This document shows positions 14,751 to 60,222 of a DNA stretch of 64,000 nt, one piece after another. Each line of letters starts with the position of its first letter. The stretch's first letter is position 1. Location of the stretch: positions 1 through 64,000 of the IMG/VR virus record IMGVR_UViG_3300037042_006682, one strand, 5' to 3'. The notes under the pieces were generated by a model. It saw only the letters and a list, made by a program, of their open reading frames with translations, was not told the DNA's origin and did no database searches. The position numbers were made by a program, and so were the translations under genes. Source of the DNA: a virus.

Positions 14751-15383
14751 TCAGATCTTGCGATCTTCTACCAACAAGGACCCGTGAAACAAAGCAGGCG
14801 TGGTCAACGCCGTAATGCGCGCCGTCCCGCCCGTAGTCTTCCACTGAATCTTTACCGTATGCGAGGCCGCCGTCGCACTCTTCCGCAACACGATCGCCCC
14901 CGAATTCAACTGTGCGGAGGTCACACGCATCTGGATGCCCCGTTGCACCGTCCCATCCACTAGCACCTGAAAAGCAATATCCTGAAGCGTAGAGCAATCC
15001 GCACTTACCGAGAACCAGATGTGCAGGTACCCCGCCGTCTCCACCGTCAACGTCACGCTGAGCGCCGTCAAATCTACGAACGACGTGGAGGTCGTCGTGA
15101 CATCCGTCGTCACCTCGGCGAACCCCACCTGCCGGATCTCCGGCGCCGCGAGGTGGGCATCGATCTGGGCATGCGTGTTCGTCCCCCGATCGGCGATGTT
15201 CAGATGCGAGAGCTGATCCGATGCCCCCTGGGCATGGCTCGCCGCATGCGCCGTCGCCAGCGTCTCCTCGGTCCCATCGTCCTTCTTCGAGTACCAGCCG
15301 CCATCCAGCTTGGGATAGAGCTTCTGGAACCCCGTCGAAGGCGTGGCGTGCGTATCGCTCTTGCTGATATTCAACTCACCCAT
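14751..15383 (-). CDS. Putative fibre-associated structural protein (210 aa)
   Basis: Start MGELNISKSDTHATPSTG at 15383 with AGGAGG 8 bases upstream; the longer reading is not supported. The N-terminal half contains THAQIDAHLA, a motif of phage fibre and whisker-type proteins. The C-terminal half is a beta-sandwich-like domain (VETAGYLHIWFSVSADCSTL, VQRGIQMRVTSAQLNSG), comparable to tumour-necrosis-factor or C1q-like heads of fibres. Likely a trimeric fibre or receptor-binding component; the specific family is not recognised. Confidence 0.6.
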   Translation of the reverse strand: MGELNISKSDTHATPSTGFQKLYPKLDGGWYSKKDDGTEETLATAHAASHAQGASDQLSHLNIADRGTNTHAQIDAHLAAPEIRQVGFAEVTTDVTTTSTSFVDLTALSVTLTVETAGYLHIWFSVSADCSTLQDIAFQVLVDGTVQRGIQMRVTSAQLNSGAIVLRKSATAASHTVKIQWKTTGGTARITALTTPALFHGSLLVEDRKI

Positions 15384-29331: not shown

Positions 29332-32300
29332 TTAATCCCTCCGCCCATGGCCCGCCGCCCGCCGATCCCGACGCGCCTGCCGAGCCTGTGCCTCTAGCGT
29401 CCGATCGATCCCCTCGACCCGCGCCGCCATGCGCTCCGTGAGCCGCGTGACGCGCCCGTGCTCGCTCAGCAAGCGGTCCAGCCGCGCCTTTACCGCCGCG
29501 TCGCCCTCCAGGGCGCGCCCGCGGGGCTCCTCCGCCTCGGGGACCGCCCCCTCGGCCGCCCCCATCTCCGGCGGGAGCCCGCCCTCGGCGCCCATCGGCC
29601 CCATCACGGTCTCCGGGTACTCCCGGATGATCTCCGCCTGCGTCGCCGCATCGCCCTTCATGGCCCCGCGCTTGTCCTTGCGCGCCTCGTCCGTCACGTA
29701 GATGGCCTCGTCCTGGGAGAAGCCAAACACGTGCTGGAGGATCCAGGGCTGCGGCACCAGCTCGCCAAGGCCCTGCGCGAGCTGCGCCTGCTGCAACCGC
29801 ACCTCCAGCTGCGCCAGCTCGAAGATATACGAGGGCACCGTCATGTGGAGGTCGAAGGCCACCGCATCGGGGTCGATCCCCAGCGCCGCAAGGTGGACCC
29901 GGCAGACCTGCTTCATGCCGTTGCGCACCTCGCGCTGCACCCGCATGGCCGCCCGCGCAAACCGCACGTCATCCCCGCTCGCGATGCGCCCCGTGGTCTC
30001 CTCCATCCCGAGGAGGCGCTTGGGGGTCTGCGCCGCGGCAAGCACCTTGTTGCGGAAGTACTCCAGGATGTCGAGGTCCTGGTTGTCCACACCCTGCAGC
30101 ACGTCGACGCGCGTGCTGTCCTTGCCCCCGCGCGTTGGCAACCACAGATCTTCCAGATTGGAGTTGCACACGAAGATCCCCGCACTGAGTCCGAAGGTGT
30201 GAGCCCCCTCAACGGTCAGCGTGTAGGTATCCTCGCGTTCCGCAATCCGATCTACAGCCACAACCTTGTGGTTATGCGCAATGGCCGACTGCCGGAAAGC
30301 CGTGAAGCTATCAAATCCGTGCTGCCGATAAGCGCGCAGCATTGAATGTCGGCAAACATTGGTCACCGGCTGAAAGCTGGCACCGTTCACCTCGGCCATG
30401 AGCTGTGGCGTCGTCTTAACAAACTGCGCCACCACATCCGCGCTAGCCGTTGGATGCTCCCCTAAGAACAATGCCACTTCAGCCATGAACAATGAGCTGT
30501 ACTGGATCGTGCGAAGTTTGATCACCCGCTGCTTGTTCTGCTCATCTCCCCAATAGGATCGCGCCGCCTCACTGCGAATCGCGTTGTCCTGTTTGTGCTT
30601 CTCCGAGACATTGTATGCACGTAAGTACTGACCACTGTCACGCAGACGATTGCTCTCGCTTACTCCCTTGGAAATACGCGCGCGCACCTCGGGTCTACGC
30701 CCCGCATCGACCATTAACCTCGCCGCATGCTGCTGCTGCTCGCGCATGCGCTGATCAAAGATCGGATCATCGGCACGCTTGCGCTTGATGGCCGTGTTCC
30801 CATCTTCCCCCCGCGCCGCATGCCAGGCTATGTGTTCCCCTGGCGTCAAAGCGCGCAAGGCCCACGGGGCATTGTTCCCACGTCCGAAATCGTGATGGAT
30901 GTGCATGCCCTCTGTCTTGAAACCACACTCACGCGCTACCACGCGATGCGTCACCACATACCTGCGCGTGTCCGGGTCGTAGAGGTGCTCGTACTTCCCG
31001 GACCTGCTATGCCACTCCCGCTCCGCAGGCTTAACCCGCAAGGGCATGAGGGCATCCCCAGGCTTGAGATCTTGCGCCTCGACCCGCTCCCCGCTGCGCC
31101 GGATGCACTTATGGTCCGGCGTCAAGCGTACCGTCTCGCCATTGTCGAGCGTAAGCTTGATCAGCTCGGCGTTTTGTCGCGTCTTCCCCGCCCACGCGAC
31201 CTTGCCCGGCACGAACTTCCCGTTGCGCGCCAGATCTACGGAATAGACCCACTGTTCCTCGCCACGCTCATGTGCCTCGGCCATCGCGACCAATGACCGC
31301 TCCGTCCCATCCAGCAATCGCACGCGCGTGTCCCCAGTGAGGCACTGCACATTATACCGAAAATCTATCTGATTAGTCGTCGGGTTAAAGACCTTCTTGC
31401 GCGAGTACTGCTGCTGGATCTTCTTGACGTGCGCCCAGCCCTCGGCCGGGGGCAGATCGCCCGTGTCGATGTAGAAGGCGTTCCGCGAGGGCCCGCGCGT
31501 GAGCTTTGTCACCAGCGCGGTGTCCTCCATCATCATGAGCCGCTTCCACGCCCAGCGCCCGCCGTCCAGCACGCTCACGCCGTAGACCGCCGTGGTGTCC
31601 TTCTGCCGCAGGCGCCAGTGCACGATCTCCCAGGGCTCGAACACCACGCACCCATTGACGGGCTTACGCTGGTCGCGCGCCACCTTCAGCGCCGCGTCGA
31701 ACTCGCGCTGCGTGAGCTTGAACTGCCCCGTGGGGTCCTGGATGAAGCCGAGGGTCGTCCCGTGGTTGTCCTGCACGCGCCGCATCGTGGGGGGCGCCAG
31801 GAAGTTGATCCCGACGACGCCCTGCTTGCCTACGAGGACCTCCCCGAAGCGATTGCCGTACTTGCCCAGCGTGCGGGCGAGCCCGTGGACGTCGTCCTCC
31901 AGGCGCAGGCGCCGCGTGAGAAGGTCCTCCAGCACGTCGCGCACGAGCTTGTCCTTCGAGGAGGCCCAGATGCTGCGCCCCGTGTTGCTGTCCGGGATCG
32001 AGGCGTCGTCCGCGTAGAGCGTGAAGATCGACGAGGTGAGGTCGTAGTCGTCCATGTCCTCAGCATCGCGGTACCGCTGCATGAGGTCGTCAGAAAGCTG
32101 GAGGGCCTGCGCGACGGGGCTGTTCGCGTCGAAGTTGCCGCCGGTCTGCAGGGCCAGGGCCCCCGTGTAGCCGTCCTTGGCGAGGAGCGGGTTGTCCTGG
32201 TGCTTGCCCGCGATCACGGCGCCCTGGGTCACGCCGCGGGGCGCCGTGGGGCCCTCCTGGGCCGGCCCGCTCCCACGCCCCAGCCAGCCCCGGATCTTGT

Positions 32301-32364
32301 CCCAGAGGCCCCCGCCCTTGTTTTCGGCCCCGGTTGGCTGCTGCTGCTGCTTGGGATCCGCCAT
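29332..32364 (-). CDS. Portal protein (T4 gp20-like), interrupted by an intein
   Basis: 1010 residues; without the intein (341-734) the product is about 616 residues. N-terminal part: DYDLTSSIFTLYADDASIPD, then DDVHGLARTLGKYGNRFGEV and the conserved FEPWEIVHWRLR. After the intein, SNLEDLWLPTRGGKDSTRVD, followed by LQGVDNQDLDILEYFRNKVL, matches the gp20 core region that precedes the clip and stem. The C-terminus is a coiled coil (LLSEHGRVTRLTERMAARVE). The portal forms the 12-fold vertex ring through which the terminase moves DNA. Confidence 0.9.
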   Translation of the reverse strand: MADPKQQQQPTGAENKGGGLWDKIRGWLGRGSGPAQEGPTAPRGVTQGAVIAGKHQDNPLLAKDGYTGALALQTGGNFDANSPVAQALQLSDDLMQRYRDAEDMDDYDLTSSIFTLYADDASIPDSNTGRSIWASSKDKLVRDVLEDLLTRRLRLEDDVHGLARTLGKYGNRFGEVLVGKQGVVGINFLAPPTMRRVQDNHGTTLGFIQDPTGQFKLTQREFDAALKVARDQRKPVNGCVVFEPWEIVHWRLRQKDTTAVYGVSVLDGGRWAWKRLMMMEDTALVTKLTRGPSRNAFYIDTGDLPPAEGWAHVKKIQQQYSRKKVFNPTTNQIDFRYNVQCLTGDTRVRLLDGTERSLVAMAEAHERGEEQWVYSVDLARNGKFVPGKVAWAGKTRQNAELIKLTLDNGETVRLTPDHKCIRRSGERVEAQDLKPGDALMPLRVKPAEREWHSRSGKYEHLYDPDTRRYVVTHRVVARECGFKTEGMHIHHDFGRGNNAPWALRALTPGEHIAWHAARGEDGNTAIKRKRADDPIFDQRMREQQQHAARLMVDAGRRPEVRARISKGVSESNRLRDSGQYLRAYNVSEKHKQDNAIRSEAARSYWGDEQNKQRVIKLRTIQYSSLFMAEVALFLGEHPTASADVVAQFVKTTPQLMAEVNGASFQPVTNVCRHSMLRAYRQHGFDSFTAFRQSAIAHNHKVVAVDRIAEREDTYTLTVEGAHTFGLSAGIFVCNSNLEDLWLPTRGGKDSTRVDVLQGVDNQDLDILEYFRNKVLAAAQTPKRLLGMEETTGRIASGDDVRFARAAMRVQREVRNGMKQVCRVHLAALGIDPDAVAFDLHMTVPSYIFELAQLEVRLQQAQLAQGLGELVPQPWILQHVFGFSQDEAIYVTDEARKDKRGAMKGDAATQAEIIREYPETVMGPMGAEGGLPPEMGAAEGAVPEAEEPRGRALEGDAAVKARLDRLLSEHGRVTRLTERMAARVEGIDRTLEAQARQARRDRRAAGHGRRD
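30163..31344 (-). mobile_element. Intein in portal protein (394 aa, HNH type)
   Basis: Residues 341-734 of the portal frame. Block A CLTGDTRVRLLDGTERS, block B RLTPDHKCIRR, C-terminal blocks DTYTLTVEGAHTFGLSAG and IFVCN before Ser735. The endonuclease part has an HNH signature (GMHIHHDFGRGNNAPWALRA followed by GEHIAWHA, about 487-516), then a helical DNA-binding extension. The penultimate residue is Cys instead of His. The insertion point is just before the conserved SNLEDLWLP segment of the portal. Confidence 0.9.
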
Positions 32365-32382: not shown

Positions 32383-35300
32383 CTAACCCATCAAGAAGGG
32401 CAACATGGGGACCTCGGCCTCGCCCTCGGGGCCCGGCTGCCCGGTCACCCACGCGAAATCCTCGGCCTCGGCGCGCCCCTCGCCTGGTTGTAGCACCCCG
32501 AGGGGCACCCTCGGAACTTTTTTCAAAAGCCCCGCTACAACGCCCGCTACCGCATCGGCACAGTTGTGTACAAAGACCCCCACCGCCAGCGCGAAGTTAT
32601 GATGAATATCTACGGTCATGTCAAAGACCGGCGCCGCCTCCAAGGGCTCCACGTGGGCCACGCAATACTCATGGGGCTGCCCCGGCGGCTGCCAAGACAG
32701 GGGCATCAACAGATCCCCTGGCCTCAAGGCATGCGCTTCACAGAAGGTCCCCGCCCACAGCATAACCTCATGGTCAGGCGTGCAATCAAAGAACAGCCCC
32801 GTCTCCAGCCAAACGCGGAGCATCTCGCACTCCCCCACTAGGTGCACATTGCGCGCCCACGCGGGCACCACGTCCCCATTGGCATCGCACGCATAGCTCC
32901 AAAACTCGCGCCCCACCAGCTCACGTATGGGCACCGCCCTCCCATCCAGCATGGCAATCTTTGTCTCCCCAGAAAGGCAATCCTTCCCACCCGCCACGGG
33001 ATGGTCGATCTTGCCGCGGAGGCGATCGTGCTCTAGGGCCCGCAGCTCCCCGAGCAGGGGCGCGTGGGGGTACAACTCGATGCGCCGCTCGTAGATCGCC
33101 GAGCGCAGGGCCTCGTAGGGCACCATCGTCGCATCCACGCTCAAGATCTCCGAGGCCACGCCGCGCCGCTTCATATGCTGCAGAGTATCGACCGCTTGGT
33201 ATTGATCTGTCGAGAACCCGATCAACACAAACCCGTGTGCCTGGATGTCATAGATCACTGCCCGGATGTCGGCGAGCTGAATCTGCTCCCCCGGCGGGGG
33301 CCGCACCTGCAGCACGAGGTCGATCACGAAGGTCGGCGCGAGGTCCGTGTAGTGATCGCCCTCAGGCGTCCGCCGCACGACCTCCACCCAGCGCTCTATG
33401 TGCCCGCACGCGATCCCCGTGGCATCTCCTGACAGCGAGGTGTCGATGTGGACATAACGCAGGGCCCGCGGATTGCGCAGGGGCGTCCAGGCCTCCTCCG
33501 TAAACCCGCCCGGCAGGCGCCGCACCGAGGCCCTGGCCAGCTGATACCAGTGGATCACGAGGGGCTGCCCATACTGCCACGTCTGGTGATCTGCGGGGTG
33601 GCGCCGCGCCGGGTTCACAGCCTCCTGGATCTTCTCCGTGCGCTGGATGAACACGCTGATGGCCGTCGTGGGGACGCCCGCGATGTCGCGGATCGCATCC
33701 TCCAAGTTGGACTCGAAGTCCACGCGGTACTCCTCGGGAACCGCGATCACGCGCGCCTCGTCGGGGAGGGTCGCAAGGACCACCTCCTCGCCGGGGGGCA
33801 AGATGCGGCTGCGCAGGGAGCTGCCCCCGCAGAGCACCTGGAAGGTGCGCCCGCTGAAGGAGCCCGGCGGCTTGACCTCCCACGTGGCCATCTCCATCGC
33901 GTAGATCGAGGGGTCGTGGTGGGCCGCCGCGAGGCGCCGATCGATGAACGACCCCACCGTGTTCGCGCTCGACACCATCACGATCATGCCGGGGAGGTCC
34001 CCGCTCGCCTGCACGAAGCGCGACTTGATGCGGCGCTCCAGGGAGCGGTACGTGACCTCGGCGTGGTCGTAGTGCGCGAGGCTCTTCTGCTGGCCGTCTG
34101 CCGTGCGGATCTTCTGCTTGGTGGAGCGCACAAAGTTGGTGTTATGCACCACCACCCCATCCGCCACGAAGGTCTGGAACTCCGTCTCGATCGCGTAGGT
34201 CTGCTCGGGGGGCAACGGCGTCACCGCCGTCACGCGGGTCAGGCGGAGGTCGACGGGGAGGTCGGTGACGCGACAACGCTCGGGTCGGACGCCCCAGGCG
34301 GAGTCACGCATACCAGCAATCGCTGCCGCACGCGCCGTTGGGCAAGCCCATCCATGAATGCCTGGTTGATGAATGGTCCATCCCACACGGACGGGATGGT
34401 AGATCCGTTGATAACGATAAGGAACGGCTGCTGTTGCCGTTGGCAGTGCCCCCACATCGCCAACAACCGCGCTCTTGTTCGAGGCGCATAGAACGATGTC
34501 TTGTCCTTCCCCTCGACCACCACCGTCACCCCGTCGGCGCGATCCACCTCGAAGTCCGCCACCGTCAACCGCTGCTGTCCCCCGATCTCGTATGACACAA
34601 ACGGCAGTTGATCCTCGCCCCGGATCGCCACCACCCCCTCCTGCGCCATCAGGGCTTGCACCAGCACCAACTCCGCATCCGACCGACACGGTATCCGCTG
34701 CCCATCCGGCCCCGTCACCCAGTGCGTGTATGTCCGCTTGCGATCTCGGATCGCCTGCGCGTTCCCCGCGGAGATGCGCGTCCGCGACGCCTCCGTGTGC
34801 GGCGTCCCCGGCCTCCCCAAACGCGCCTCGCGTAGACGCCGCCTGTGCGCCTTGCTGAGCGGCTTGCCATAGCGTGGATTGTCCGCCCCCCACATCACGG
34901 GCGGCAATGCCATGCACCCCTCGGCAACCGCCTGTTTGGCCCTCTCTGACATTCGTTCTCGGGCGGCCGGATCCTGCATGAGACGCTTGTGCGCCTCGGA
35001 CATCTTGATCCGCGTCTCCTCGCTCACCGGCTTCTGAATACGCCCTCGCTGTGCCTCGGACATCTTGCGCCGCGTCTCCGCGCTGTGGTGCCATCCCGTC
35101 CGCAGCTTGGCAATCTCGCGCCTCCGCTGCCGCTGCTCCTCGTTCGGCACCCACCCCTTGCAGCCCCGCCGCGCCTCGGACATCTTGCGCCGCGTCTCCG
35201 CGCTGGCCGTCCGCCCCGTGTTGATCTCGCTGAGCTTCTTGCGCGTCTCCTCGGTATGCGTCCGCCCCGTATTCGCCTCGGACATCTTGCGCAGCTCGTC

Positions 35301-37818
35301 TTCGGTATGACGCCGCCTCTTGCCCGCCTCGCTGAGCTTTCCTCGTGTCTCCACTGAGACCTCGCGGCCTGCACACGCCTCGCGCATCTTCTGCTTGGCC
35401 TCCTCCGTATGCTTCTTGCCCTTGCGCGCCTCGCTGATCTTGCGCCGCGCCTCCTCGCTGAACACACGCCCCTTGCCTGCCGCACTCAACTTCTCGCGAT
35501 GTTCGTCCGTCAACGGCTTCCCACGCTTCGCCGCGCTGACCTTCGCCCGCGCTTCTGCACTCAACGTCTGCCCTTTCCTCGGCATCCCGCACCTCAACGA
35601 CCAGTTCGTCCCCGACCCGCACGTCCCGCGCGTAGCGGTACACCAGCCACGCGCCCTCCCGCACCAACACCGGGTGGTCCAGCGAGGGCGCCACCGCGCC
35701 CCCATCATAGGCCAGCTCCACTAAAGGCTGGACCGTCGAGGGGCGGATGGCAAAGCGACCGTACCGCACGCGCTGCGTCGCGTGATCGAGGCACTTTACC
35801 CGCCATCGAGATCGCTCTTCTGGCGCCATTGCCACAAGCGCGCCCACTGACAGATTTGTCTGTAACACGCCGCTTTTACAATGTAAAGCAGAAGTTGATC
35901 GAACACACTCGTCGAGGGCCGCGGCGAAGGCGTTAGTGCCCATGGAGCGCTCGGCGAGGTAGCTCGCGACGATCATCTGCACGTTGTAGGGGAAGTACGT
36001 CGCCTCGGTGTGGACGTCCGGTTTGAAGTGCTCTTGGAAGTACGGGCTGATCGCGAGCTTGTTGTCGATGGCCGACTTGAGGACCTGGCGCGCGAGGACC
36101 AGGTTGCGGCTCACGAGCACGATGCTCATCTCGGAGCCCGGCGACATGCCGTAGGAGGCCTGCGGGTTCACGAGGCAGCTCAGCTCGTAGAGGAGGCGGC
36201 ACATGGCGATCGAGAGGGCGGTCGTGTTGTGTACCACCACGCCATCCGCCACGAAGTTGCGCGGCCCCGGCACCTCCACGTCGTACACGTCCTCCAGCTC
36301 CCCGCTGCCCGGATCGTAGGACACCACCTGGTCCCAGAACAGATCGCCCCACCACGCGCACCACGGCGGCAGCGTGAAGGCCTGCTGCATGCGCACGAAC
36401 TTGGGGCGCCCCTGGTAACGAGACGCGCGCCACGGCGACCAAGCCTCGTTCCGCATCGGCCCCAGCTCCCGCCGTAGGCGTCGCAGCACAGCCGCGTTCA
36501 CCGGCATGATGTCCACGTTGGTGTTGCTGGCGGTCGCCCGCGCCGTTGCGAGGATCGTCGCGCAGCGGTCTTCCTTGCCCAGCACGGGTCCCACCGCCGT
36601 CAGGAAGCGCTCCAGGTTGTCAGCCTCCGTGACGAACAGGCGCCAGGCCGGCTTGGTGCGGAGTTCCCCCTTGTGCGTGTAGGTCTTCTGGCAGGGGTAG
36701 ATCCGCGAGTGTACGCCGAAGCGCAGGAGCAACTGCCCCACGTCGCGCACGAAGCCCTCGCTGGCCAACGTCAGCTCTGCCTTGCACGGCGCCTTGGGCT
36801 CCAAAGAGCCATCCGTCGCCCACAACCGATTGAGGAACAGCCCCAACTGCCGATCGGAAAGGCCAAAGAAGGCGGAAGGCACACGCTTGTCTCGCGATAG
36901 ATGGGCAAGGTCGTATTTATCTCGCACCCACGTCGTCCCGCAAGCACGCCACTCCTCACACTGACGTCCTCTGGTATCACGCGAGGTATCCTGTGCCACG
37001 CTCTGCACCACCAAGCGCATCGCGTCGGAGACCACATGAAAGCGCTCCATCACAGGTCCTGGCTTGTTGCAGAACGTCCAATTACTGCTTGTGCAACTAC
37101 CGTTTGCCAGCATGAACGCCACGAACTCGACCTCGGCGTCCGTGACCTTCAAAGGGTGCTCCGGCGGTGGCAGCGTGCGCGCCGTCCCCACTAGGGATCC
37201 GGGCTGCATCTCGCCCGCGGGCCGATACCCGTCCGGCGTCAGCACGGGGTGGTCCGGCGTGACCTCCACCCGCTTGCCGCTCAGCAGGCGCAGCGTCCCC
37301 ACGGGTTTGCGCCCCGCACATGTAACAATTGCTGGGCGCGTAACGGTACATCCCCTGTCCTGATCATAGGCCGCCACGTGCACCGCCCCCATCTCGTTCA
37401 GGGGCACCTCGCTGATCACACGCTGCTGCCCCAGATGGGGATCGTACAGCGTGCTCCGCGCACCCAGACACTTCCCCCACCCCGTGCTGCCCCCCAGGAT
37501 GACCTCGCGGTAGTGCGCGCCCGGCTCGAAGATCTCGATGAGCTTGCGCCGCAGGACCGGGTAGAGCGTCTGGCAGGACTCCCCCAGGTAGTAGGGATCA
37601 TCAATGAAGGTCGCCATGTCGACGGGGGCCACGCGGTACCGCTTCGCGTAGCACTCGTTGACGATCTCGGGGCGCCCCGCCTGCTCCTCATACAGGAGGG
37701 CCTCGAAGAGGCGCCGCTCATCGGGGGGCAGCGCCGCGAAGCGCCGCAGGAGGGCCGCCCGGCGCTCGGCCGGCGTGCGAACCGTCCGCGCGCGCCCCTC
37801 GGGGGTGCGGACGATCAT
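32383..37818 (-). CDS. Large terminase subunit (gp17-like) interrupted by three inteins
   Basis: 1811 residues, reduced to about 668 after removal of three inteins (117-531, 638-1226, 1614-1752). The spliced enzyme shows Walker A GGSTGWGK+TTALS, a Walker B region AFAAALDE+TNFV, the nuclease motif YVHIDTSLSGDATGIA (about 1455-1470), a middle motif GFSTDQYQAVDTLQ, and nuclease motif III GGKD+CADAVAG. The ATPase pumps DNA into the head and the RNase H-fold nuclease cuts concatemers. It is coupled to the small-subunit candidate by ATGA. The three junctions all fall at catalytic motifs. Confidence 0.93.
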   Translation of the reverse strand: MIVRTPEGRARTVRTPAERRAALLRRFAALPPDERRLFEALLYEEQAGRPEIVNECYAKRYRVAPVDMATFIDDPYYLGESCQTLYPVLRRKLIEIFEPGAHYREVILGGSTGWGKCLGARSTLYDPHLGQQRVISEVPLNEMGAVHVAAYDQDRGCTVTRPAIVTCAGRKPVGTLRLLSGKRVEVTPDHPVLTPDGYRPAGEMQPGSLVGTARTLPPPEHPLKVTDAEVEFVAFMLANGSCTSSNWTFCNKPGPVMERFHVVSDAMRLVVQSVAQDTSRDTRGRQCEEWRACGTTWVRDKYDLAHLSRDKRVPSAFFGLSDRQLGLFLNRLWATDGSLEPKAPCKAELTLASEGFVRDVGQLLLRFGVHSRIYPCQKTYTHKGELRTKPAWRLFVTEADNLERFLTAVGPVLGKEDRCATILATARATASNTNVDIMPVNAAVLRRLRRELGPMRNEAWSPWRASRYQGRPKFVRMQQAFTLPPWCAWWGDLFWDQVVSYDPGSGELEDVYDVEVPGPRNFVADGVVVHNTTALSIAMCRLLYELSCLVNPQASYGMSPGSEMSIVLVSRNLVLARQVLKSAIDNKLAISPYFQEHFKPDVHTEATYFPYNVQMIVASYLAERSMGTNAFAAALDECVRSTSALHCKSGVLQTNLSVGALVAMAPEERSRWRVKCLDHATQRVRYGRFAIRPSTVQPLVELAYDGGAVAPSLDHPVLVREGAWLVYRYARDVRVGDELVVEVRDAEERADVECRSAGEGQRGEAWEAVDGRTSREVECGRQGACVQRGGAAQDQRGAQGQEAYGGGQAEDARGVCRPRGLSGDTRKAQRGGQEAASYRRRAAQDVRGEYGADAYRGDAQEAQRDQHGADGQRGDAAQDVRGAAGLQGVGAERGAAAAEARDCQAADGMAPQRGDAAQDVRGTARAYSEAGERGDADQDVRGAQASHAGSGRPRTNVREGQTGGCRGVHGIAARDVGGGQSTLWQAAQQGAQAASTRGAFGEAGDAAHGGVADAHLRGERAGDPRSQADIHALGDGAGWAADTVSVGCGVGAGASPDGAGGGGGDPGRGSTAVCVIRDRGTAAVDGGGLRGGSRRRGDGGGRGEGQDIVLCASNKSAVVGDVGALPTATAAVPYRYQRIYHPVRVGWTIHQPGIHGWACPTARAAAIAGMRDSAWGVRPERCRVTDLPVDLRLTRVTAVTPLPPEQTYAIETEFQTFVADGVVVHNTNFVRSTKQKIRTADGQQKSLAHYDHAEVTYRSLERRIKSRFVQASGDLPGMIVMVSSANTVGSFIDRRLAAAHHDPSIYAMEMATWEVKPPGSFSGRTFQVLCGGSSLRSRILPPGEEVVLATLPDEARVIAVPEEYRVDFESNLEDAIRDIAGVPTTAISVFIQRTEKIQEAVNPARRHPADHQTWQYGQPLVIHWYQLARASVRRLPGGFTEEAWTPLRNPRALRYVHIDTSLSGDATGIACGHIERWVEVVRRTPEGDHYTDLAPTFVIDLVLQVRPPPGEQIQLADIRAVIYDIQAHGFVLIGFSTDQYQAVDTLQHMKRRGVASEILSVDATMVPYEALRSAIYERRIELYPHAPLLGELRALEHDRLRGKIDHPVAGGKDCLSGETKIAMLDGRAVPIRELVGREFWSYACDANGDVVPAWARNVHLVGECEMLRVWLETGLFFDCTPDHEVMLWAGTFCEAHALRPGDLLMPLSWQPPGQPHEYCVAHVEPLEAAPVFDMTVDIHHNFALAVGVFVHNCADAVAGVVAGLLKKVPRVPLGVLQPGEGRAEAEDFAWVTGQPGPEGEAEVPMLPFLMG
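32563..32979 (-). mobile_element. Terminase intein 3, mini-intein without endonuclease (139 aa)
   Basis: Residues 1614-1752. It begins CLSGETKIAMLDGRAVPIRE, has block B FFDCTPDHEVML, and ends AVGVFVHN before Cys1753. The length matches a splicing domain alone. The site is inside nuclease motif III (GGKD+CADAVAG). It has all canonical terminal residues (Cys1, His-Asn, +1 Cys). Confidence 0.92.
34141..35907 (-). mobile_element. Terminase intein 2 (589 aa), hosts an out-of-frame homing endonuclease gene
   Basis: Residues 638-1226. The splicing blocks are in the terminase frame: Cys638 in ALDE+CVRSTSALHC, block B SLDHPVLVREGAW (about 712-724), and C-terminal blocks TYAIETEFQTFVADG and VVVHN before Thr1227. 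Between about residues 742 and 1190 the terminase frame reads as low-complexity sequence (RGDAAQDVRG-type repeats). This is the shadow of a homing endonuclease encoded one base out of register. The frame contains no stop over this whole stretch. Confidence 0.88.
34239..35585 (-). CDS. Homing endonuclease nested out of frame inside terminase intein 2
   Basis: 448 residues from ATG 35585, with GAGG 6 bases upstream. Residues 1-190 contain about ten 17-residue NUMOD3-type repeats (SEEARRKISEARKGK, TEETRKKLSEINTGR, SAETRRKMSEARRGC), known DNA-binding modules of homing endonucleases. Residues about 300-380 resemble a PD-(D/E)XK nuclease (RSDAELVLVQALMAQEG, then VADFEVDRADGVTVVVEGKD). The C-terminal 40 residues overlap the intein C-terminal region and look less constrained. 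It would be translated from the same mRNA as the terminase but in another frame. Confidence 0.8.
   Translation of the reverse strand: MPRKGQTLSAEARAKVSAAKRGKPLTDEHREKLSAAGKGRVFSEEARRKISEARKGKKHTEEAKQKMREACAGREVSVETRGKLSEAGKRRRHTEDELRKMSEANTGRTHTEETRKKLSEINTGRTASAETRRKMSEARRGCKGWVPNEEQRQRRREIAKLRTGWHHSAETRRKMSEAQRGRIQKPVSEETRIKMSEAHKRLMQDPAARERMSERAKQAVAEGCMALPPVMWGADNPRYGKPLSKAHRRRLREARLGRPGTPHTEASRTRISAGNAQAIRDRKRTYTHWVTGPDGQRIPCRSDAELVLVQALMAQEGVVAIRGEDQLPFVSYEIGGQQRLTVADFEVDRADGVTVVVEGKDKTSFYAPRTRARLLAMWGHCQRQQQPFLIVINGSTIPSVWDGPFINQAFMDGLAQRRVRQRLLVCVTPPGASDPSVVASPTSPSTSA
36226..37470 (-). mobile_element. Terminase intein 1 in the Walker A motif (415 aa, LAGLIDADG type)
   Basis: Residues 117-531. 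Begins CLGARSTLYDPHLGQQ, block B RVEVTPDHPVLTPDG, dodecapeptides FVAFMLANGSC (about 232-242) and FLNRLWATDGSLE (about 328-340), and ends PRNFVADGVVVHN before Thr532. The site splits the P-loop as GSTGWGK+TTALS, so ATP binding requires splicing. The terminal motif FVADGVVVHN is almost identical to that of intein 2, suggesting common origin or gene conversion of the ends. Confidence 0.93.
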
Positions 37819-59489: not shown

Positions 59490-60222
59490 TAGATGGACCC
59501 TCCTTGTTTGAAACAGATGCTTCTGCTTTCAAAGCACATCTCCGCTTTGCGGAAGCACGCATCTTTATCTTTGTTTCTTCTGAAATAACCCGTCCCTTTA
59601 ATGCAGCACTAAGCTTGTTCTTTGTTTCATCAGAAAACACCCTTCCCTTATGAGCATCACTCATTTTTCGCTTTGCATCATCCGAGTGGCGCTTACCAGT
59701 GTTTATCTTTTTAAGCTTATCTTTCGTTTCATCAGAAACCTTCTTTCCAGCCATGCTCTTTCCAAGTCGTCTGGCACGTTCACGCTGCTCATCAGTTGTA
59801 ATACATTTCAACAATTCACTGTGACGAGTGCGCATCTCATCTGTCCAAACACGATTTCTATTTGCCGCAGCTACAGCCTCTCCAATATAAGCAGGCCGCT
59901 TTCTCCATCCACCGCGTCCACTAACAGAAGGAAGATGGTTATATCGAAGATCAACCGGAGTATTATCTATAAACTCCTGTTCTGCTTCCCTCAAACCATC
60001 AACATCATCAACACGTCTAAGGATTAAGAAATCAAAGCTATCAGCACCAAAAATAGCAAAGTCATGGGTGAGCAGGCTGTTTGAACGTCTGCCCGTTGAT
60101 AAGCAATACAAGTGCTGGGAAATCCTTCTCTTCATGTTCTTTGTTGATCCAATATAAATCATCCAGTTTGTTTTATTTTTAATGCAATAAACACCAGGCC
60201 CTCTGTCGAATACATCACTCAT
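59479..60222 (-). CDS. GIY-YIG homing endonuclease with NUMOD3 repeats
   Basis: 247 residues. GIY-YIG core at the N-terminus: GPGVYCIKNKTNWMIYIGST, Arg in KNMKRRISQHLYCL, and the catalytic Glu in LREAEQEFIDNTP. The C-terminal half has NUMOD3 repeats (SDETKDKLKKINTGKRHS, SDDAKRKMSDAHKGR, SDETKNKLSAALKGR). The DNA is far more AT-rich than all surrounding genes, a clear sign of recent transfer. It overlaps both flanking genes by a few bases without destroying their starts. Confidence 0.92.
   Translation of the reverse strand: MSDVFDRGPGVYCIKNKTNWMIYIGSTKNMKRRISQHLYCLSTGRRSNSLLTHDFAIFGADSFDFLILRRVDDVDGLREAEQEFIDNTPVDLRYNHLPSVSGRGGWRKRPAYIGEAVAAANRNRVWTDEMRTRHSELLKCITTDEQRERARRLGKSMAGKKVSDETKDKLKKINTGKRHSDDAKRKMSDAHKGRVFSDETKNKLSAALKGRVISEETKIKMRASAKRRCALKAEASVSNKEGPSNGE

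Follow-up and report, generated by a model that had tools for sequence, protein, structure and literature searches.

Canonical large inteins carry a LAGLIDADG or HNH endonuclease fused in frame between the two halves of the Hint splicing domain. Other arrangements keep the endonuclease apart from the splicing element: Dassa et al. in 2009 reportedly described fractured genes, in which split inteins have a free-standing homing endonuclease gene (HEG) between their halves, and the HEGs of group I introns, which overlap the intron/exon frame, are translated apart from the element that splices. The closest precedent lies outside inteins: the ShiLan domain and the insertion in gp60 of Pacc40 each place an HNH gene out of frame in the gene of a phage methylase (Arsenault, Gosselin, Gogarten 2025, PMC11855218). 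In these insertions the host frame is open, its in-frame translation is featureless, and the distribution is patchy and homing-like; they are without a splicing domain, the inserted residues are presumed to remain part of the host protein, the HNH proteins are of 160-195 aa, and no Shine-Dalgarno (SD) sequence was detected (PMC11855218).

Here we describe the second intein (intein 2) of a terminase gene (TerL) in a stretch of 64,000 nucleotides (the window) from a 161,208-base IMG/VR virus record. As in the canonical large inteins, it has the splicing blocks, an endonuclease between the Hint halves and what appears to be a homing cycle, but the endonuclease is encoded in the +1 frame, apparently as its own polypeptide, while the in-frame linker is an unstructured shadow sequence. 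The intein-associated and putatively separate HEG polypeptide is a likeness to fractured genes, from which the locus differs in that a single ORF overlaps the HEG, whereas in a fractured gene both the intein and its host are divided between two polypeptides; the host TerL is one continuous ORF in all members of the family described below. The HEG would be translated apart from the splicing element as in group I introns, although splicing would here take place at the protein level and no intron RNA was found with Rfam. As in ShiLan, the HEG lies out of frame within its host gene, and the reading frame of the latter is open; the differences are that a complete Hint domain encloses it, that the nuclease belongs to another family, that an SD sequence is present, and that the host is TerL. 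In text searches of the literature for inteins whose endonuclease is overlapping, out of frame or in an alternative frame, no such intein came up, and the statement of an earlier note on this DNA, that no intein of such design had been described, still appears to hold for inteins, with the qualification that the related non-intein design was published in 2025. The results point to a real, conserved and apparently undescribed intein variant, which is very probably a mobile intein with a homing endonuclease that is translated from its own internal start as a second protein, its gene being overprinted on the linker in the +1 frame.

The terminase gene and its second intein

The TerL gene and the parts of intein 2 in the TerL frame are the following.

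32383 to 37818, minus strand: TerL precursor ORF with three inteins (ORF call; Pfam Intein_splicing in three stretches; C-extein compared with phage terminases)
34141 to 35907, minus strand: intein 2, Cys1 to Asn589, at Walker B, LDE/CVRST...VVHN/TNF with slashes at the junctions (AlphaFold Hint fold; exact empty site in L041)
35587 to 35907, minus strand: N-terminal splicing segment, intein residues 1-107, with Cys1 and block B SLDH (invariant C1, S75, H78 and others; pLDDT about 90)
34279 to 35586, minus strand: TerL-frame shadow loop, about residues 108-543 (stop-free, disordered in the model, without family match)
34141 to 34278, minus strand: C-terminal splicing segment, about residues 544-589, EQTYAIETEFQTFVADGVVVHN, followed by +1 Thr (invariant columns; pLDDT about 90)

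The precursor ORF has 1811 codons, and its C-extein shows about 30% identity to terminases of isolated phages and had no relatives in the cellular genomes searched. Intein 1 lies inside Walker A and carries an in-frame LAGLIDADG domain, intein 2 lies inside Walker B, and intein 3 is small and located at KD/CAD. Pfam matches in the TerL frame were of Intein_splicing and LAGLIDADG only. The earlier note had regarded the splicing blocks of intein 2 as normal, and the Pfam match, the invariant residues and the modelled fold all agree with this: residues C1, H78, H588 and N589 are invariant in nine homologues, with Thr at +1, and the matches of the AlphaFold model in the PDB (Foldseek) were inteins, including mini-inteins. 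In the alignment of nine TerL-frame inteins, invariant columns are confined to residues 1-100 and 539-589, with none in the shadow loop through residue 538, and no Pfam family was matched by the TerL frame of this loop of about 450 residues. The AlphaFold model gave a pLDDT of about 90 at residues 1-107 and 544-589 and below 50 at residues 108-543, a stretch which closely matches the extent of the HEG (codons 108 to 556).

The features of the nested gene are as follows.

34239 to 35585, minus strand: nested HEG in the +1 frame, 448 aa, ATG to TGA (ORF; Pfam NUMOD3; homologues; selection)
35590 to 35595, minus strand: Shine-Dalgarno sequence GAGGTG, 4 nt ahead of the nested ATG (an SD precedes the start codon of each of the ten homologous genes)
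34860 to 35570, minus strand: NUMOD3 repeat array, the DNA-binding part, bounds approximate (Pfam PF07460, E = 1e-29, 8 stretches)
34320 to 34745, minus strand: TnsA-like PD-(D/E)XK nuclease domain with invariant E305, D344, E358 and K360 (HEG alignment, Pfam, AlphaFold, fold search)

The HEG is read in +1 with respect to TerL, and its TGA lies just inside the C-terminal splicing segment. On re-examination, what had been given earlier proved exact for position, strand, protein length (448 aa), start codon (ATG) and GAGG site. Profile searches of both frames, which the earlier note had proposed, matched NUMOD3 in the nested frame and Intein_splicing in the TerL frame; the ten NUMOD3-type repeats counted before are only about right in number, since 8 stretches were significant in Pfam, and the repeat family itself is supported at E = 1e-29. 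The HEG also matched a PHROG annotated as 'homing endonuclease'. The PD-(D/E)XK-like domain suspected earlier was borne out and is specifically TnsA-like. Its sequence profile gave a weak TnsA match which was later confirmed by fold search, where the AlphaFold model (pLDDT 92.9) matched TnsA 1T0F at E 4e-6 and TM 0.62; Pfam TnsA-like_N was found in 4 of 8 members with a best E of 2.4e-9, and the HEG alignment shows no variation at E305, D344, E358 and K360. Both the nuclease fold and the E...D...ExK motif are shared with TnsA of Tn7 (PDB 1T0F, 1F1Z), from which the window protein differs in not being a transposase subunit and in joining its nuclease to NUMOD3 repeats within a homing gene. A phmmer search of the HEG C-terminus against the PDB gave no match, the HEG matched the 50,697 sequenced phages through NUMOD3 only, and relatives of the nuclease domain were found neither in these phages nor in cellular genomes.

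Related inteins, empty sites and the nested start

A scan with the TerL C-extein yielded the loci L041-L046 and an alignment-based scan yielded 72 TerL loci. In total, ten distinct TerL inteins in twelve contigs share the nested nuclease, all of them at DE/C and all in the +1 register. Two of them, L042 and L043, have nested genes of 75% and 68% identity to that of the window in the same register, the alignment-based scan added L049, L067/L068/L069, L081, L094 and L101, and a scan with the nuclease domain added L118 and L122. The GC content of the family ranges from 38% to 66%, with 38% for L081 and 51% for L094, and the intein of L094 had no relatives among the 50,697 sequenced phages. The most distant member is L101 (4902-10559), a TerL with three inteins in which the Hint domain of the Walker B intein is very diverged, with a local match at residues 37-103 only, and in which the nuclease domain is 26% identical to that of the window while the +1 design is retained; this may reflect either an independent origin or deep ancestry. 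The ten cases are not fully independent of each other because all occupy a single site of the TerL gene and come from uncultured phages. An assembly error or simple double frameshift, which the earlier note had considered, was ruled out by the recurrence of the arrangement in ten diverged versions on independent contigs; in the nine other distinct inteins the endonuclease is always in +1 and never fused in frame. Both this family, with its empty and degenerate states, and the TnsA-like identity of the nuclease go beyond the earlier reading.

Canonical inteins with an in-frame endonuclease occur in the same TerL genes, namely as intein 1 of the window and after GDC in L122. The latter, the second intein of the L122 TerL (GD/CVTADT), carries in frame both NUMOD3-like repeats and an HNH-like domain, and in-frame and out-of-frame NUMOD3 endonucleases therefore coexist in one gene. 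Tandem copies of the nuclease domain were seen in two nested HEGs, three in L067 (5491-7908) and two in L122 (5503-6936); as judged by eye, the ExK or D residues are missing from the later copies and the first alone looks catalytic.

An SD sequence of at least 4 nt at a spacing of 3-11 precedes 10 of 10 HEG starts in comparison to 25% of ATGs in the same DNA, and the start codon is ATG in nine genes and TTG in L101. The SD sequence is retained although the TerL-frame peptide over it changes (VEV, MED, WRR). A search for a promoter-like site preceding the HEG found none. A competitor of internal initiation is a programmed +1 frameshift near intein residue 108, which would produce the HEG product as an N-extein/N-intein/HEG fusion or a conditional endonuclease in the in-frame style. 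This reading draws on the register, which is +1 in all members, and on the HEG frame being open upstream of the ATG in some of them (the window and L094), but all members have a properly spaced SD with ATG or TTG exactly at the homologous protein start, the HEG frame of L101 has a stop three codons before its start, and no slippery motif was recognised in an unsystematic look. The conserved SD and the upstream stop in L101 make internal initiation likelier than frameshifting, which we consider unlikely. With respect to the earlier claim of a separate endonuclease polypeptide nested out of frame in an intein with normal splicing blocks, the architecture stands and is found to recur, and the separate polypeptide is what we infer from it.

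The distribution of the intein bears on its mobility. Homing elements are expected to occur in full, empty and degenerate states. Walker B is uninterrupted at about 46 TerL loci, and L041 and L044 have no intein at this site. For L041 the empty site is exact at the DNA level, with the junction GACGAG/ACCAAC and flanks 93-96% identical to the window, so the insertion is precise and the host gene is also known uninterrupted. Mini-inteins of the same family without the HEG were found in L079/L080, L133 and L136, and L133 corresponds to L122 after loss of 1290 nt (430 codons) from the stretch that separates the start of the HEG from its last helix. The full, empty and HEG-deleted states would fit a homing cycle, and the distribution appears consistent with it. 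The nested protein could alternatively be some other DNA-binding or DNA-cutting phage protein sheltered in the intein rather than its homing endonuclease, given that its function is deduced from domains only and that catalytic residues are lost in the tandem copies of L067 and L122. We regard this as quite improbable, as NUMOD3 is a hallmark of homing endonucleases, also reflected in the PHROG annotation, and the patchy presence, with empty sites and HEG-deleted forms, is what characterises a homing element.

Selection and stop codons in the two frames

Substitutions were classed by their effect in both frames, and omega was calculated for each frame from pairs of homologues. The comparison of the two frames suggested in the earlier note showed purifying selection on the nested frame, with omega of 0.22-0.35 for the HEG (saturated for the L081/L094 pair), in comparison to 0.8-1.1 for the TerL-frame loop. 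Selection therefore preserves the sequence of the nested protein, and in the TerL-frame loop it preserves only the open frame; apart from stop avoidance the loop is neutral (omega about 1.0).

The TerL and HEG frames are both open over the entire 1347 nt, as had been noticed earlier, with zero TerL-frame stops. Under synonymous-codon shuffling of the window HEG, 9.4-9.8 TerL-frame stops were expected and 0 of 5000 shuffles reached the observed zero, while the third frame, serving as an internal control, has 10 stops, near expectation. Synonymous shuffles were made for eight HEGs, and the stops expected were 9.6 for the window, 10.7 for L042, 16.9 for L043, 9.6 for L049, 43 for L067, 24.6 for L081 (GC 38%), 17.2 for L094 and 10.0 for L101. 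For all ten distinct HEGs, the expectation from codon context was about 195 TerL-frame stops in comparison to 0 observed. The single-coding TerL exteins of the same loci, with L067 left out, had 156 stops in the same register in comparison to 173 expected, and a second open frame of at least 200 aa was found in 0 of 32 ordinary NUMOD3 genes. The shuffle of a single locus is weaker than it looks because ordinary genes in the GC-rich window also have open +1 runs, the longest spanning about 230 codons at an expectation of 6 stops, and we therefore relied on the homologues. A chance open frame was ruled out by the shuffles and pooled test, the extein controls and the 32 ordinary NUMOD3 genes. By eye, one double-open stretch was seen elsewhere in the window at 14754-15375 (minus strand), where the other frame of a 246-aa ORF is open for 207 codons with about 6 stops expected by synonymous shuffle, and this is probably due to chance.

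These counts also bear on the two remaining readings. HEGs typically sit in introns and T4-like bypass elements are known, and by analogy the HEG segment could be removed before TerL is translated, by an RNA intron within the intein or by ribosomal bypass, so that the loop would never be made. A nested RNA intron was rejected as no Rfam intron match was found; removal or skipping would leave the 0 stops in comparison to about 195 expected unexplained, and the L133 relic has lost a whole number of codons with the frame kept, which makes this reading very unlikely. That a free-standing HEG recently fell into the linker as a degrading passenger, the open TerL frame being luck in DNA whose high GC3 reduces stop frequency and which has +1 open runs of about 230 codons elsewhere in the window, is hardly credible given that the arrangement is also found at 38% and 51% GC (L081, L094) and in ten diverged inteins, that omega is 0.22-0.35 for the HEG, and that 0 stops were seen where 24.6 and 43 were expected in single genes.

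Proposed mechanism and meaning of the overlap

For the mobile intein with an internally initiated endonuclease, we infer the following course of events. Ribosomes on TerL would read through the entire insert, and the Hint halves (residues 1-107 and 544-589) would meet around the unstructured shadow loop and splice, leaving an intact TerL. Other ribosomes would begin at the internal SD and ATG and release a free nuclease of the NUMOD3-TnsA-like type, which would cut intein-less TerL at the Walker B codons, so that repair would copy the intein together with the HEG. The HEG would be free to evolve only as long as no TerL-frame stop arises. A disordered loop of 450 residues, or about 820 as in the shadow loop of L067, might impair splicing; the prediction is that Hint domains splice around disordered linkers of 450-820 residues, which would be useful for intein engineering.

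We consider it likely that such overprinted inteins form a new class of mobile inteins, in which the endonuclease frame extends over the entire linker and selection on the host frame only bans stops. The design would be old enough to span 38-66% GC and to include nuclease domains that are 26% identical (L101). Splicing and mobility, which were thought to be welded together in inteins, would come apart in the design of intein 2, and a route is indicated by which a free-standing nuclease gene could colonise a protein-splicing element without fusion. The locus may also count among the cleaner natural cases of overlapping genes, with one frame constrained in sequence and the other merely stop-free, and it suggests reading all frames in the featureless linkers of other inteins and in odd insertions like ShiLan.

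Two further observations were made in the window. Truncated-looking NUMOD3 repeats, 40% identical to the nested HEG, are located at 59536-59880 (minus strand) in an open frame of 247 codons, and no nuclease domain was seen there. The gene adjoining TerL encodes a T4-like portal protein (29332-32364, minus strand) and contains an intein with an apparently in-frame HNH/NUMOD-like endonuclease.
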